In this document: piece after piece, positions 6,649 to 14,266 of the stretch | Position numbering within the stretch: the stretch's first letter is position 1 | Layout of the letters: each line of letters begins with the position of its first letter | IMG/VR virus record: IMGVR_UViG_3300006734_000044 | Location: 1 to 22,834 of that record | Reading direction: 5' to 3' (one strand) | DNA length: 22,834 nt | DNA from: a virus | Notes under the pieces: model-generated | What the model saw: only the letters and a program-made list of their open reading frames with translations | Told to the model about the DNA's origin: nothing | The model's database searches: none | Position numbers and translations under genes: made by a program

Positions 6649-7482
6649 TTATATTTTAAATATATCAGATTCTAAATCAACTTCAACATTAACACTATCA
6701 GGTATATCAAAGTCTGTTAGCTTGATACTATCATTGTTGTTAAACTTGGTATTACTTAAAAATTCAGTTGTAATAAAATCATGAAACGCTTTTGTATTTG
6801 CTAACCAGTAACGGGGATGTGTTTTCTTTAATGCATGCGTTACATGGTTATAAAAACTCCACAAATTGTTTTCATCAACATTATAGTTAAATGTAGAATT
6901 TTCCATTTCAGATTTTATTACTGTAAGTTGTGTAGGCTCAAGTAATTCTTTTTCATAGTAAAGTCTACCTAAAAGCTCAGCTTGTGTCCTTTTAGAAATA
7001 CTAACTTTCTTGATATTATCTCTGTCTTTTATTATGTTTTTAAATGTGTTTTGAGCATTTTTAATTTGATAAGTGATTTGATTTAAAATATCAAAGTCAG
7101 CACTACCGGTATGCTTTCTAGCAAAATTCATTTCACCACAAACCATACCATTGTTACAAACAAACACATAAGCTCCAATAGAACATTGAAATCTAATTGA
7201 CTTATCATATGAGTTAGTCCAGGCAAACATCATTCCTAATTCTGACTCATCATTTGAATTAAAGGATTGCGGTATAATGTGATATATACCTTGAGCAACA
7301 TTACATCCTTGATTTGCTTTATATACTTCATTTGTTATTTTGAAACCGCTATTGTTAAGCAGTCTAATTGTGTTATCTATCACAAATTTGTGTGATATAA
7401 CTGTGTAAGAGTCTGCATGATTTGGCAGACTTGCGTTCTCCAGATATTGTCTGGTAACTTCTTTTGGTTTTTTGTATCCCAT
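6649..7482 (-). CDS. DUF932-like phage/plasmid protein
   Basis: 277 residues. The hallmark of the DUF932 (phage/plasmid-like TIGR03299) family is visible at ~103-126: GAYVFVCNNGMVCGE, then ARKHTG. It is preceded by a TNSYDKS segment at 89-95 that matches the family's N-S-x-D-x-S strand. Members occur in phages and plasmids, usually near replication genes; the biochemical function is not settled. This one is followed by a possible 25-residue membrane peptide and has its own promoter candidate at 7506-7537. The N-terminus is short compared with longer relatives. The family call is fairly secure, the role unknown. Confidence 0.7.
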   Translation of the reverse strand: MGYKKPKEVTRQYLENASLPNHADSYTVISHKFVIDNTIRLLNNSGFKITNEVYKANQGCNVAQGIYHIIPQSFNSNDESELGMMFAWTNSYDKSIRFQCSIGAYVFVCNNGMVCGEMNFARKHTGSADFDILNQITYQIKNAQNTFKNIIKDRDNIKKVSISKRTQAELLGRLYYEKELLEPTQLTVIKSEMENSTFNYNVDENNLWSFYNHVTHALKKTHPRYWLANTKAFHDFITTEFLSNTKFNNNDSIKLTDFDIPDSVNVEVDLESDIFKI

Positions 7483-7537: not shown

Positions 7538-8371
7538 TTAAAATATGTATCTGATTGTGTCTTCATCAAAATATTTTGTATATATATTTTTGAATTTACT
7601 TAACAGTTTGGTTTTCAATTCAATAGGATATCTCATAATACCTTGTTGATTTTTAATTTCCGAACTATACTTCATGAGCTCTTTTGCTTGATCTGATGAT
7701 CTTAGCATTTGATTTTTGTGATTAGTAAGTGCTATTACTTCACATTTATTTTGTCCTGCATTTTCTAATACCTCTTTAAAAAGTGCATCATAATGCTGTT
7801 CCCAACCGGGGTAAAAAATTAAAGGACTGTAATTACAATGTACTTCCCAACCAAGTATCTTTAACCTATTGATATCCAGTATTCTATCTGAAATCTTTTG
7901 CATTTTAGGTTCCAGTATATCGGAATATACTTGAGGCATAAGGCTTACTCTTACTCTTGGCTTCTTGTTAAAATGATTCACATCCAGCTTTAGTAAGCTT
8001 GGATATTTAGTTGCCATTGTAGAGTTTAATCTTGGATGATCATCATATCTTTTAAGATAATCAATTAGGGGCTCAGGTAAATGTTTTTGCATTAAGACTA
8101 AGTCTGTATTACAAGCAATATCCACCATAGTATATACAGGGTCTTGTTGATCTGGTACTTTAGTAAAACCTTTTTCCCATTCAACAACAGACTGAAATAT
8201 GTCATCAACATTTGTGTTTACAAAGACTCTATCTCCATTATACCTAGACATATAACAATAAGTGCTAACACAGCCACCAAAACAACCATAGATTAAATTG
8301 GGAGCAATACAGTTAGCACTATTGTTATTATCCTTTGTATTAAGAGTCTTAGTCTTTTGATGCTTAATCAC
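7538..8371 (-). CDS. Spore photoproduct lyase-like radical SAM protein
   Basis: Residues C30, C34 and C39 lie in GCFGGCVSTYCY. The arrangement G-C-x-G-x-C...Y-C-Y, then IACNTDLV (C87), a STMATKYPSLL segment, RVRVSLMPQ and PLIFYPGWEQHY follow the order of spore photoproduct lyase (SPL) from Bacillus as I remember it. C87 matches the hydrogen-donor cysteine (C141 in B. subtilis) and Y38/Y40 match the tyrosines flanking the third cluster cysteine. The cluster spacing is CX3CX4C, not CX3CX2C. SPL splits thymine dimers with an AdoMet radical, so DNA repair or thymine modification is likely. I choose GTG 8371 (277 residues), which overlaps the 59-residue gene by eight bases; ATG 8416 would run 53 bases into it. 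Confidence 0.75.
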   Translation of the reverse strand: MIKHQKTKTLNTKDNNNSANCIAPNLIYGCFGGCVSTYCYMSRYNGDRVFVNTNVDDIFQSVVEWEKGFTKVPDQQDPVYTMVDIACNTDLVLMQKHLPEPLIDYLKRYDDHPRLNSTMATKYPSLLKLDVNHFNKKPRVRVSLMPQVYSDILEPKMQKISDRILDINRLKILGWEVHCNYSPLIFYPGWEQHYDALFKEVLENAGQNKCEVIALTNHKNQMLRSSDQAKELMKYSSEIKNQQGIMRYPIELKTKLLSKFKNIYTKYFDEDTIRYIF

Positions 8372-8543
8372 TAGAAATAATTTCTTTAATATCAGAATAA
8401 GCAAGACTACATTCATGAAATTCTGAACCGCCTTCTTCTATTTCTGATAAAGCTAGATAATATATACTTTTAATCTCTTCTTTTTTATCAGGATATTCAA
8501 GAATATGCTGTTGAGTAAATTTAAATAAGCTTTCTTTATTCAT
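8364..8543 (-). CDS. Unknown 59-residue acidic protein
   Basis: The ATG overlaps the dNMP kinase stop (ATGA at 8543-8540) and the frame runs to TAA at 8366-8364. The 59 residues begin MNKESLFKFTQQHILEYPD and are acidic and helical (KKEEIKSIYYLALSEIEEG). There are no metal or nucleotide motifs. Coupled start and stop junctions on both sides argue that it is a real gene, and it fixes the radical SAM start at or near 8371. The function is unknown; a small partner of the kinase or the radical SAM protein is only a guess from position. Confidence 0.65.
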   Translation of the reverse strand: MNKESLFKFTQQHILEYPDKKEEIKSIYYLALSEIEEGGSEFHECSLAYSDIKEIISSD

Positions 8544-9142
8544 TGAATTATAATCTTTCTAACGTTTTTAACAAGGTTTTCCAAGTTGTCATCATTTTCA
8601 ATAATGTAATCAAAATCAAAACCATCAAGAGCTGTTTCACTAGGATGAGCTTCTGCAAGTTCTTTCATAGATGTACCATAACCAGGTCTATTTATTCTAA
8701 TAATAATACCACTTCTTTTTTTAATAGCATTATACTCATTTGGAAATCTTACATCTGTGATAATCCACTTTTGATCTTTTGAATAATCTGCAAATAAAGC
8801 ATTTACCCAAGTGTCTTCATGAACATTATTTCTCATAGCATCAGTTCCAATTTTTTGCAAAAGCTCTCTTACTGACATCATTTTAAGAAAGCTGACATTG
8901 CTGAAAGCATCAAACTCATTGACTTTGCTCCATTCGCGTCCAAGAATTGTTTTTTTAAATTCTTGATCTTCAAACTTTTCTACAGGGATTCCTGTAAGTA
9001 AACTGGCAATTATCTTAGTTTTAGTTGCAAACTTTTTAATTTCATAAAGATCATTATTATTTGTTATATATAGATCTCTAATAATTGCACCAACAGTATC
9101 TTTGCCTGAACCTATTTTACCACTAATCCCTATTAAGTTCAT
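8540..9142 (-). CDS. Deoxynucleoside monophosphate kinase (T4 gp1-like P-loop kinase)
   Basis: 200 residues. The N-terminal P-loop GKIGSGKDT (8-16) binds ATP. The family signatures VRELLQKIGTDAMR (91-104), ITDVRFPNEY (128-137) and HPSETALD (166-173) match phage dNMP kinases, which convert dNMPs, in T4 including 5-hydroxymethyl-dCMP, to dNDPs for DNA synthesis. The length is normal for the family. It overlaps the zinc-ribbon gene upstream by 20 bases and the 59-residue gene downstream by four. Proximity to a radical SAM enzyme raises the question whether it handles a modified nucleotide, which sequence alone cannot decide. Confidence 0.85.
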   Translation of the reverse strand: MNLIGISGKIGSGKDTVGAIIRDLYITNNNDLYEIKKFATKTKIIASLLTGIPVEKFEDQEFKKTILGREWSKVNEFDAFSNVSFLKMMSVRELLQKIGTDAMRNNVHEDTWVNALFADYSKDQKWIITDVRFPNEYNAIKKRSGIIIRINRPGYGTSMKELAEAHPSETALDGFDFDYIIENDDNLENLVKNVRKIIIQ

Positions 9143-9515
9143 TCCTATATTTAATTTCTTTTCTAATAAGATTCATGTGCCATTCGGCACCATCATAATC
9201 TAAAACAGCTTCTAAGTGATCATCTTCCATTTCAGATAAAGGAATCCATTTAAGTGGCTGTTTTCCATCCACACCTCTTGAACCACGTGTAGCATACTGT
9301 CTGACAGTTTCATACGGATCATCATCATATACTGCAAAGATTTTGATTTTACTCATATCTTTAGCACCATATCTTAGATAATCTGTACCGCCATCCACCA
9401 TTGCATTATTAGGACAAGAGCACGTTTTATAGTCATGTCTGTGGTAACTAACAATTGTTTCATTACACTCCAGACATGTGACAGAATTATAAACTAGTTG
9501 CTTATCACTTGGCAT
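9123..9515 (-). CDS. Zinc-ribbon phage protein of unknown function
   Basis: 130 residues. The N-terminal region has cysteines at 14, 17, 32 and 34 (CLECN, then TCSCPNNAMVDGGTDYLRYG), a compact zinc-ribbon arrangement found in a widespread family of small phage proteins (I recall the label DUF7695, not certain). The C-terminal half (IPLSEMEDDHLEAVLDY) resembles a separate short domain in phage proteins of unknown role, here fused to the ribbon. It overlaps the MazG-like gene by 11 bases and the kinase by 20, so it is co-expressed with nucleotide-metabolism genes. Nucleic acid or protein binding through the ribbon is an inference. Confidence 0.65.
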   Translation of the reverse strand: MPSDKQLVYNSVTCLECNETIVSYHRHDYKTCSCPNNAMVDGGTDYLRYGAKDMSKIKIFAVYDDDPYETVRQYATRGSRGVDGKQPLKWIPLSEMEDDHLEAVLDYDGAEWHMNLIRKEIKYRNELNRD

Positions 9516-9810
9516 CTTTTACAAATTGTCCATTGACCATTTTACCGGTTCTTTTACTAATGACATTATAAGCAGACTCAAGGCATTCTTCTAATTTAAG
9601 ATTTTGCATCTTAGCCTGGATAATTAATGTAACCATGATATCTCCCATTGAGTCAATGATTTCTTCACGGTCATTTGTGTTTACAGCTCTACAGAATTCT
9701 GTAGTCTCTTCTAAAGTTTTAAGGGCCTGTGCCATAGGTGTGGCTTTGGACAAGATTCCCTTGTCCTTAGCCCAACTTTCTACGGCTACTTCTAATTCAA
9801 AATAATCCAT
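9505..9810 (-). CDS. MazG-like nucleotide pyrophosphohydrolase
   Basis: 101 residues, all helical. The metal-binding signature is present as EETTE (34-38) and DSMGD (53-57). It is followed by LKLEECLESAYNVI and the tail RTGKMVNGQFVKD, which closely follows a MazG-like subfamily common in phages and prophages. MazG-type enzymes cleave NTPs or dNTPs, or ppGpp-like alarmones, to monophosphates. In phages they are thought to adjust nucleotide or alarmone levels. The second motif has Ser where classical MazG has Glu (SMGD, not ELGD), as I recall for this subfamily. It starts two bases after the DNA polymerase stop. Confidence 0.75.
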   Translation of the reverse strand: MDYFELEVAVESWAKDKGILSKATPMAQALKTLEETTEFCRAVNTNDREEIIDSMGDIMVTLIIQAKMQNLKLEECLESAYNVISKRTGKMVNGQFVKDAK

Positions 9811-9812
9811 AT

Positions 9813-11816
9813 TTAAAATAAAGTTAATTGATTTATTGGTTTGTTTACTATGTTGTCAATTTCAGATTCAATAGCTTCAATATAATAAGCTTTATCAATA
9901 TTATACATTTCCCATTTTGGTTTAATTTCTATTTTATTAAAAACTAATTGCATCCATTTACCAGCTTCTAATTGCGCTTGTCTTCCATCTTCACTATTTA
10001 CTTTAACAATTTTAACACTAGATTCAGAATTAGACTTGCATATATAATATCTATTTATTTTTTGAAGCATTTCTTCTTTGTATTTACCGTCTTTTAAGTA
10101 TTTAGCTACTTGTCTCCAATCACCTTTAGATTTAGCACCAATACAGTAATCTAAAATGTTTTTGTTTTGTTCTAAATATTCTTGTGGTAAAGTATTATGA
10201 ATAAAGTAATTATAGATAGCTTTAGGTATTACTAGTTTAGATTTGTTCTTATGTAATGCTAATTCATGAAAGTCAAATCTACCTTTTAGTTTAGCTGCCG
10301 CATATAAAAATTTATCACCATCAACTTTGAACATGTAATGAGGATTTTCTTTTCTCACTTCTCTCCATGTTGTAATATCAACTTGCTTAAAATTGCTTAA
10401 GGCAATGTAGTTATTTACATCACCAAGTATAAGTTTTTGATACTGATCGTGCTCTAGTGAAAGACTGGTTATACTTTCCCATTCTTTACAAATTTCCATA
10501 TACCGCTCTACATAACTTCTGGGTATTCTTGTTTCTATACCATCTGTATTTTGCATTAAAGCAATAGCTCCTGGTATTCTAGTCATAATCATTTCATATA
10601 ACATCATGAGAGTTAGTTGACCATTAACTGTAATACGCATACACAATTCAGGATCATAGAAGAAACTATCTTTATCATTACTCAAACCAAAAGTAGAGTT
10701 TAGAATAATTTTATAAACATAATTCATTGGATCCTTTTTAGGAATCTTTTTTCTTTCCTCAAAGAACCATTCATACTGATCGCAAAATTCTTTTGCTGGA
10801 AAATGCCCAGGAGACCATTTGTTTCTAATAACAAGATTAGGATAAAAAGATGTAACATCTGAACTTATGATAACATATTCATCGTTAGATTCATATACAG
10901 CGGGTTTCCTAGCACCATGAACACCACCTAAACCAAAGTCTGTTTTAACATCTTTGAAAGTTACAGAATATTTAAAACTACCTTTTAAGTTTTCTGGATT
11001 AAGTTCAACAGTCTTAAATCTTTCTAAGAGAGATTGAAATTCTAAAGATTCAAACTTTATATATGGTAAAATAATATTAGATAGTTTAATTATACTTCTA
11101 TATGTTCTCATTTCCTTAATATCTTTTTTTGAGATATTAAGTTTTTTTGACATATAATAAGCAAACAACTCTTTACTTATTCTAGGTTCTGATGCACTAT
11201 ATAAATTAATGTTGTATGTCTCTGTAAGTTTCTTTCTTAGTTTAATTTGAGGTTTAGATCTTTCAAATATTGCTTTAGTGGACTTAACATCATTAATACA
11301 ATACTCTACTATGGTATTTAACTGTTCCTTAGTTTCAATTAAAGTATCATGATGAATTGGCATTTCAAGGATATTGTCCCAATCCATACTATACTGTATC
11401 CATTTAAGACTAGATCTTTTAGCTGGATTATCCCAGTGATGCATTTTAAATAGGTCTATTTGACCTATAGACATCTTCCATTGAGGATAATCTTGAAACT
11501 CTTTACTATTACCTTTTTGAATACATTGACCTGCATACTTGTAAATGATTTCAGCAATTTCACAACCAGAAAAATTAGACCACATTACACAGTTATTAAG
11601 AATGTAATGTGTAACTTGACCATCAAATGCTAAACCGTTATATGATATGTGCCATTCTTTTTTGTTTTTGTTTTGGTTTAGAAAATTTACGAAATCTTTA
11701 AAATCATTTTGCAGGTCATGAATAATAAAAATTTTTTGTTCTGATGTTTTGTAATGTTCAAATACTGCAACAAAACAATTACGCAAGGTTTCATAATCCA
11801 TTACCCAGTGATTCAT
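9813..11816 (-). CDS. Family B DNA polymerase with 3'-5' exonuclease
   Basis: 667 residues. The exonuclease motifs are Exo I DYE (7-9), Exo II YNGLAFD (59-65) and Exo III YCIND (172-176). The polymerase motifs are A SDVTSFYP (D320), B KIILNSTFG (369-377) and C NTDG (423-426). Motif C has Asn for the first Asp of the usual DTDS but keeps the second, D425. The protein is short for family B, as phage versions can be. The extreme C-terminus is QLTLF, a match to the bacterial beta-clamp-binding pentapeptide, which suggests processivity through a host or phage clamp. There is no protein-primed (TPR) signature that I can place, and the nearby primase supports RNA-primed replication. It lies between the thioesterase and MazG-like genes, each two bases away. 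Confidence 0.88.
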   Translation of the reverse strand: MNHWVMDYETLRNCFVAVFEHYKTSEQKIFIIHDLQNDFKDFVNFLNQNKNKKEWHISYNGLAFDGQVTHYILNNCVMWSNFSGCEIAEIIYKYAGQCIQKGNSKEFQDYPQWKMSIGQIDLFKMHHWDNPAKRSSLKWIQYSMDWDNILEMPIHHDTLIETKEQLNTIVEYCINDVKSTKAIFERSKPQIKLRKKLTETYNINLYSASEPRISKELFAYYMSKKLNISKKDIKEMRTYRSIIKLSNIILPYIKFESLEFQSLLERFKTVELNPENLKGSFKYSVTFKDVKTDFGLGGVHGARKPAVYESNDEYVIISSDVTSFYPNLVIRNKWSPGHFPAKEFCDQYEWFFEERKKIPKKDPMNYVYKIILNSTFGLSNDKDSFFYDPELCMRITVNGQLTLMMLYEMIMTRIPGAIALMQNTDGIETRIPRSYVERYMEICKEWESITSLSLEHDQYQKLILGDVNNYIALSNFKQVDITTWREVRKENPHYMFKVDGDKFLYAAAKLKGRFDFHELALHKNKSKLVIPKAIYNYFIHNTLPQEYLEQNKNILDYCIGAKSKGDWRQVAKYLKDGKYKEEMLQKINRYYICKSNSESSVKIVKVNSEDGRQAQLEAGKWMQLVFNKIEIKPKWEMYNIDKAYYIEAIESEIDNIVNKPINQLTLF

Positions 11817-11818
11817 TA

Positions 11819-12205
11819 TTACTTTGTATATTTTAGTTTTACATTAGCTGATATAGGTACAGGATCTCCGTTTTCATCTATTCTAACAAATCTGACATTT
11901 GTTGATAATATAACAACCTGATTTCCTGAATAAACATTATGAGACCTAGCTTCCATATAAAATGTTATACTGGTATTACCAATATGTACCACCTCCGCAT
12001 AAATTTTTATAAGCTGACCTTCTTTGGCAGGTTTTTTAAATATACACTTATCAATCATAACTGTTACCATTCTTGGTGTATCACAAACTTCCATAGCGTA
12101 GGCTGCAGCAGCAGCATCTAACCACGCAAGCAATTGACCACCAAATAGATTAGCATGAAAGCCTAAGTCTGATTTTTTAATTGGATGTGTTGTAATTAAT
12201 TGCAT
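11819..12205 (-). CDS. Hotdog-fold acyl-CoA thioesterase
   Basis: 128 residues, single hotdog domain. Residues HANLFGGQLLAWLDAAAAAYA (17-37 region) carry the N-x-F-G-G...D pattern of YciA/BFIT-type acyl-CoA hydrolases, with D30 as the likely catalytic acid. They are followed by VTVMIDKCIFKKPAKEGQ and the long strand SITFYMEAR. The reaction is hydrolysis of an acyl-CoA to acid plus CoA. Such a gene is unusual beside a phage polymerase and would be an auxiliary metabolic gene acting on host lipid or CoA pools, or a hotdog protein with a new substrate. It is preceded by the hairpin at 12213-12238. Confidence 0.8.
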   Translation of the reverse strand: MQLITTHPIKKSDLGFHANLFGGQLLAWLDAAAAAYAMEVCDTPRMVTVMIDKCIFKKPAKEGQLIKIYAEVVHIGNTSITFYMEARSHNVYSGNQVVILSTNVRFVRIDENGDPVPISANVKLKYTK

Positions 12206-13270: not shown

Positions 13271-14266
13271 TTATAGTACTACTTTTCCAACAACAAACTC
13301 ATATGGCAAAGAGTATTCGTTATTTTGATAATGAAATGATGCTTTGTCAAGTACTCTTTTAAGATCTTCAGTCCAATCAATAAGAGTTGCTCTTGATACA
13401 TCAAATACATATACTTGATCATACCTGTCAATGACTACAAATTTAAACAATATTCTGTAGTCTTGTTTTTCTTCAGGTAAATTTTCAAAGACTAGCTTAC
13501 AGTAAATTGCACACTGCAGCCAATAGTTATAAAACTTTATAGTTTCTGGAAAGTCTGCTAACCATTTGCTGCTGGTTTTAAGATCGCATATTGTTACTAA
13601 TTTTGCATCATCATCTATTTCATAAAAATCAATATAACCCTTTAAACCAAATGGAAAATTTTCAAGCTTGCATTCTAAATATTGCTCTGAAAATGTTTGA
13701 ATAGGATCCAAAGCAAAATCAGTTTTTTTCTTTGCAAAAAGAAGCTTAACTTTTTCATTACTCATGATAATGTTAGCTTGTTCTTTACACTTAGCTAATG
13801 TTTCAGAATCTATCACATCCACCTTTGGGTTATTGATAAATTTCCAATACTCTAAATTATCCGCACATTGAATTTTAATAAGTCTTGCAGAATCTTCTTT
13901 AAGACTTTGATATAAATTTTCTTCTTTTAGAATATCTAGTATTGTTGTCTGTAATTTTTCAGACATCAGATTTATGTCGGGTTTTCCCATCATTAAACTT
14001 TTTTCTGCTAGTTTATGAAGGATTTTTCTAACATTATCTGTAGGCGTTTTACTTGGTGTAACCTTAAACTTTTCTTTTAGTTTTTCTGGTTCAAAAACTA
14101 AACAGTGAATAAGCTTACCCTCAACTAAGTGCTTTTCTAATCTTTCATCTCTTTCTCCAAGAATATAATCTTTGTAAAATAAAGATGGTGAAAATAATAA
14201 TTTGTTTAGTGATGAATAACTAAACTTGAAATCTTTAGAGTAAAACTCTTGTTCTTTATCTGTCAT
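13271..14266 (-). CDS. PD-(D/E)XK exonuclease, Exo VIII / RecB-family-like
   Basis: 331 residues. The N-terminal segment GKLIHCLVFEPE (50-61) is the G-x-x-x-H...EPE signature of Exo VIII/RecE-type phage nucleases. The catalytic core is visible as GYID (210-213, D213), then ICDLKTSSKW with D228-x-K230, and the QxxxY helix motif QCAIY (251-255). These bind metal and cut DNA. In phages such enzymes resect double-strand ends for single-strand annealing recombination, which fits the Sak4-like ATPase and ssDNA-binding candidate encoded upstream. The alternative is a Cas4-like nuclease, but no Fe-S cysteine set is present. It is preceded by the structured gap 14267-14414. Confidence 0.8.
   Translation of the reverse strand: MTDKEQEFYSKDFKFSYSSLNKLLFSPSLFYKDYILGERDERLEKHLVEGKLIHCLVFEPEKLKEKFKVTPSKTPTDNVRKILHKLAEKSLMMGKPDINLMSEKLQTTILDILKEENLYQSLKEDSARLIKIQCADNLEYWKFINNPKVDVIDSETLAKCKEQANIIMSNEKVKLLFAKKKTDFALDPIQTFSEQYLECKLENFPFGLKGYIDFYEIDDDAKLVTICDLKTSSKWLADFPETIKFYNYWLQCAIYCKLVFENLPEEKQDYRILFKFVVIDRYDQVYVFDVSRATLIDWTEDLKRVLDKASFHYQNNEYSLPYEFVVGKVVL

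Follow-up and report, generated by a model that had tools for sequence, protein, structure and literature searches.

The window analysed here, the whole 22,834-nucleotide stretch of an IMG/VR virus record, is a 22.8-kb fragment with long relatives of 110–120 kb, and it carries a gene for a radical SAM protein resembling spore photoproduct lyase (SPL) (Table 1). A second in-frame start, an ATG at 8416, lies upstream of this SPL-like gene. We preferred the GTG at 8371 because the relatives start at or adjoining this position: the GTG aligns with the Met start of most of them, and their N-terminus, M-I-K-x-Q-x-T-K-T-L, falls at or beside it. The start and coordinates (7538–8371) given to the gene by a sequence-only reading of this DNA were right. 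The gene lies in or near a block of replication and nucleotide genes that encode the DNA polymerase, dNMP kinase, MazG, DUF932 and PD-(D/E)XK proteins. In one of two groups of relatives (clade B, see below), it adjoins a dCTP deaminase gene, and a UDG-family protein is present in a sister genome. Median identity to the window is 77% for SPL-like copies versus 69% for DNA polymerases. Within the replication block, a 4HBT thioesterase gene (11819–12205 of the window) adjoins the polymerase gene and is found in ∼17 loci, a minority of relatives, with a median identity of 83%.

Table 1. Genes and sequence motifs around the SPL-like gene of the window.
Feature	Position	Strand	Basis or remark
DUF932 protein, downstream neighbour	6649..7482	minus	beside SPL-like gene in most relatives
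SPL-like radical SAM protein gene	7538..8371	minus	277 aa, GTG start at 8371, stop included
C87, equivalent of hydrogen-donor C140 (Gt) / C141 (Bs)	8111..8113	minus	alignment
Y38-C39-Y40, relay tyrosines Y96/Y98 (Gt), Y97/Y99 (Bs)	8252..8260	minus	alignment
Cluster motif C30-X3-C34-X4-C39 (CFGGCVSTYC), Y40 next	8255..8284	minus	sequence
59-aa ORF, upstream, overlaps SPL-like gene start by 8 bases	8364..8543	minus	no family
Deoxynucleoside monophosphate kinase	8540..9142	minus	family match
MazG-like pyrophosphohydrolase	9505..9810	minus	family match
Phage DNA polymerase, anchor of conserved replication block	9813..11816	minus	PHROGs/locus comparison
PD-(D/E)XK-type nuclease, same block, tentative	13271..14266	minus	via pooled scan of relative G004

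For the relative G004, PHROGs gave corresponding matches for the terminase, portal and major capsid protein. The terminase matches are to crAss-like and related phages of Bacteroides, Flavobacterium and Cellulophaga, and the capsid matches include Leptolyngbya phage Lbo-JY46 as well as crAss-like phages. Judged by these terminase and capsid matches, the phages with the SPL-like gene are an uncultured, widespread crAss-like group. A gene beside the G004 terminase gene (L259, 6185–6454) was assigned to a GroES-like Cpn10 protein through a pooled scan.

The sequence-only reading had called the protein SPL-like and had proposed a profile search as a check. In this search, the window protein matched the Pfam SPL family PF20903 well above its cut-off (58 bits against 27, E 9.5e-16). 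Its best NCBIfam match was TIGR03886, a family of unknown function, at 136 bits and thus below the equivalog cut-off of 437.55, and the true SPL family TIGR04070 followed at 54 bits, also short of its equivalog cut-off (400). The label therefore holds for the superfamily, but the nearest named family is TIGR03886 and not the spore enzyme; by the equivalog test, the phage protein is not an authentic SPL. The remaining named radical SAM families gave far lower scores than SPL. A phmmer search of the PDB with the window protein found only SPL (1.7e-10 to 4fhc), and a profile of 45 phage relatives likewise hit only SPL chains significantly, with an E of 4.6e-20 and nearly full-length coverage. No match to the window protein was found in PHROGs or, up to E 0.1, among the PADLOC models of anti-phage defence; L177, a distant clade member, matches phrog_13321 (unknown function) at 4.8e-6.

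Relatives of the gene are numerous in IMG/VR (at least 219 with tight and 530 with loose search patterns). In a collection of 50,697 deposited phage records, tblastn with the window protein gave no match, tblastn with a clade B protein or a TIGR03886-like phage protein gave no relative, and tblastn with a true SPL gave one weak human-gut match only. The phage group thus consists of hundreds of environmental sequences with no match among deposited phages. As two residue counts had used the motif in the search pattern, a separate read-out by tblastn was made with no selection on the motif. It comprised 149 distinct proteins with four residues between the second and third cysteines (X4 proteins); L189, an X2 protein misaligned as X4, was excluded. 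The X4 proteins split into two diverged groups, clade A, which includes the window, and clade B (L202–L210 and L237), with 42–48% identity to the window protein. As clade A accounts for most of the 149, these are related copies rather than independent events. Among relatives, dN/dS was ∼0.02–0.11 for pairs with estimable dS, showing that the SPL-like gene is under purifying selection. We also considered a cellular origin of X4 proteins. The only three matches in the genome collection were all in metagenome-assembled genomes, one of them on a contig as long as a phage genome (114.7 kb), and are probably phage sequences.

Alignment with SPL of known structure (TIGR04070/PF20903; PDB 4FHC–4FHG) places the SPL catalytic residues in the phage protein. 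The sequence-only reading had pointed out a cysteine, C87 in IACNTDLV, as the hydrogen donor; it is present and aligns with C140 of Geobacillus thermodenitrificans (Gt) SPL, and the C140A crystal mutant 4fhe has Ala opposite it. Likewise, the Phe of the Y98F mutant 4k9r stands opposite phage Y40. The C140/Y98/Y96 relay is thus preserved, as are K174, R193 and S195, with phage counterparts K122, R141 and S143. In the motif-free read-out, C30/C34/C39, Y38/Y40, C87, D90, K122, R141 and S143 were found in 149/149 distinct X4 proteins, so the donor cysteine and Y-C-Y landmarks singled out earlier are conserved throughout, whereas a third landmark, a GWE segment, is present in the window protein but not invariant among phage proteins. 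In Bacillus subtilis (Bs) SPL, a 5′-deoxyadenosyl radical abstracts the H6proR of the lesion, the hydrogen is returned by C141, and AdoMet is regenerated by a radical relay through Y99 and Y97 (PMC5368176, PMC3742179). The phage protein likely works like SPL.

To compare folds, as had also been proposed, we used AlphaFold models. A first model, built on 20 close homologues, had a pLDDT <50 in the cluster region and was replaced by one from 45 diverse sequences (mean pLDDT 91.6, pTM 0.90), in which the cluster loop (31–50) was the least confident part, with a pLDDT of ∼65. The six best PDB matches of this second model were all SPL (TM 0.75–0.76), and the top match (TM 0.76, E 1.9e-13) was an SPL structure in complex with dinucleoside spore photoproduct. 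MqnE followed as the next family, at 8e-4, and a viral structure library contained no close relative. By sequence and fold, the phage protein is a member of the SPL superfamily. These matches also bear on the idea that the protein acts on a non-DNA target, namely the nucleotide pool, RNA or protein. Its neighbours MazG, dNMP kinase and dCTP deaminase are pool enzymes and would suit such a role, but SPL-type DNA-lesion lyases account for every significant match by sequence and for the best ones by fold, which makes a non-DNA target improbable.

The cluster motif itself departs from SPL. The translated ORF reads C30-F-G-G-C34-V-S-T-Y38-C39-Y40, exactly as the sequence-only reading had described, and its CX3CX4C spacing is present in essentially every copy. 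The C34–C39 interval is two residues longer than in SPL, which has CX3CX2C, and the canonical relatives of the X4 proteins have X2 spacing. Within the motif-selected set, the X4 loop varies (V/I/L, then D/N/S/E/K/G, then T/S), with the cysteines and Y-C-Y constant. A sequencing or assembly error was rejected, as 149 distinct proteins agree. C21 was rejected as an alternative cluster ligand, being Ala in 17/143 X4 proteins of the motif-selected set; C210 is replaced by Ser in three of the same 143. The sole member with X3 spacing, L067 (1820–2647; CX3CX3C, CQGNCKSYC), groups with the X4 protein L041 with support of 100/99 in the tree. This grouping marks the X3 spacing of L067 as secondary, apparently through later loss of one codon inside clade A.

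The three invariant cysteines appear suitably placed for putative binding of one radical SAM [4Fe-4S] cluster. The spacing deviates from CX3CX2C and the loop is modelled at low confidence, as might be seen if the longer loop could not bind a cluster and the gene were inactive or decaying. However, the catalytic set is invariant in 149 distinct proteins, dN/dS is low (∼0.02–0.11), and a radical SAM cluster is held in ThiC (CX2CX4C) with four residues separating its last two cysteines (PMC4389238); an inactive gene is therefore extremely unlikely. Further non-canonical radical SAM motifs are those of HmdB (CX5CX2C) and QueE (CX14CX2C) (PMC4389238). Although ThiC shares the X4 between the last two cysteines, all three families are unrelated to the phage protein, and the ThiC motif is C-terminal. 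In the open-access literature searched, we found no paper on a radical SAM CX3CX4C motif and nothing on phage SPL. If it holds a cluster, the motif would be an undescribed cysteine spacing for the radical SAM superfamily, directly preceding the SPL relay tyrosines.

Both its scores and its substrate-side motifs place the phage protein closest to TIGR03886. Scores against TIGR03886 form a graded series, from full-length phage TIGR03886 proteins (426–518 bits) through clade B (177–209) to clade A (136). SLMP, EVHxNxSP and E-x-I-x-x-T are common to TIGR03886 and the phage proteins, and phage L215 and T216 follow TIGR03886 at the place of Gt H272–R273, which is common to the true SPLs compared. 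Phage proteins also differ from SPL in the residues of the C-terminal hairpin and in the absence of the N-terminal ∼60 profile positions, and clade A lacks an equivalent of Y305. In the unrooted tree, both X4 clades lie on one side of a branch and bacterial and other-phage TIGR03886 proteins on the opposite side, with SPL distant from both. The score series, the tree and the shared residues argue for the view that the phage protein performs TIGR03886 chemistry, with the SPL relay working on another nucleic-acid substrate and not on spore photoproduct. In contrast to the phage protein, TIGR03886 has CX3CX2C, carries an N-terminal domain, and mostly has Glu or Asn in place of C87, where every X4 phage protein has Cys. 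As this donor cysteine is kept in X4 proteins but mostly Glu/Asn in TIGR03886, the same reaction is not required, and we consider shared TIGR03886 chemistry somewhat unlikely, though a serious contender. We file the X4 proteins as a new phage clade in the SPL superfamily, with features between SPL and TIGR03886; they offer a handle on this bacterial family of unknown function.

Full-length TIGR03886 members also occur in other phages (L186–L200), and two of these proteins, L187 and L188, pass the TIGR03886 cut-off. L187 (7995–9047) has the canonical CX3CX2C yet keeps the donor-position Cys, the only one to do so among the X2 TIGR03886-like proteins read out, and may be an intermediate form. 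The fewest changes would be needed if the donor cysteine were ancestral and lost in most TIGR03886 proteins. A further TIGR03886-like phage gene (L201, 8001–9116) is disrupted by frameshifts and stops. In bacterial genomes G040, G163 and G179, TIGR03886 is accompanied by a separate SPL, suggesting different jobs; the two are probably not interchangeable.

Our preferred reading, held with a little less than even confidence, is that the phage protein is a stand-alone, light-independent radical SAM DNA-repair enzyme that directly reverses a dithymine lesion, either spore photoproduct or one related to it. One [4Fe-4S] cluster would be held by C30, C34 and C39 via the loop two residues longer than usual. 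Once reduced, it would cleave AdoMet to give the 5′-deoxyadenosyl radical, which would abstract hydrogen from a thymine–thymine photolesion so that the cross-link breaks. The thymine radical would regain hydrogen from C87, and Y40, aided by Y38, would pass the radical back to 5′-deoxyadenosine to regenerate AdoMet. The enzyme would be made together with the phage replication proteins. As the phage protein lacks the SPL N-terminal domain and has a TIGR03886-like substrate side, repair of spore photoproduct in particular is plausible rather than established. If direct reversal is its role, phages would have an SPL-type direct-reversal DNA repair enzyme.

The distribution of the gene bears on this reading in two ways. 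Among loci chosen by DNA polymerase and extending ≥9 kb downstream of it, the SPL-like gene was present in 20/38. That about half of relatives (18/38 loci) lack it near the polymerase counts against repair; at least one of these 18 (L400) carries an SPL-like gene elsewhere in the record. Within ∼10 kb, no gene family significantly co-varied with the SPL-like gene after allowing for many tests, and none replaced it where absent. Presence or absence as a single gene, without a fixed partner within this distance, would be expected of a one-protein direct-reversal enzyme. A photolyase was considered as a substitute in phages without the gene, and none was found in 16 long records.

The same data speak to base modification, which the sequence-only reading had offered as an alternative to repair. 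Here the protein would use radical chemistry to alter thymine, or some other base, of the phage DNA, for example as protection from host nucleases. The location among nucleotide and replication genes, including the dNMP kinase gene, is compatible with this, and patchy presence would suit a defence-evasion trait. However, PF00303 (thymidylate synthase/hydroxymethylase type) is absent from the 16 long records and ThyX occurs in one (L263, 7919–8605 of G004, close to the SPL-like gene), which speaks against a DNA-modification pathway. A Tet/JBP search gave no match, and its controls gave none either. Moreover, the hydrogen-returning residue is kept, which suits reversal over functionalisation, and a single accessory gene without co-varying partners would be more in keeping with repair by one protein than with a modification pathway. 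The proposal gained no support from the PF00303 and co-variation results, and we regard base modification as very unlikely.

As for where a lesion would arise, spore photoproduct dominates in dry, A-form spore DNA (PMC3742179). For it to be the lesion of the phage enzyme, we would have to assume that it forms in packed or dried virion DNA. A fuller claim is that thymine lesions arising in DNA within virions, whether spore photoproduct or a kindred lesion, are repaired in the dark by the CX3CX4C phage clade; we regard this claim as unlikely. If it is true, packed phage DNA and spore DNA would have one lesion and its cure in common, and spore-type photolesions in packaged virion DNA become a testable question.

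Two observations concern SPL-type genes elsewhere. SPL had been described in the sequence-only reading as known from spore formers; clear SPL homologues (L131–L133) are found in Pseudomonadota-sample genomes that also carry TIGR03886, with the donor Cys in L131 and L132, so SPL is not restricted to spore formers. In a 174-kb phage (L194), an adenylosuccinate synthetase-like gene (9062–10123) comes right after a TIGR03886-type SPL-like gene and is followed by DNA ligase and dCMP deaminase genes, a candidate 2-aminoadenine pathway.
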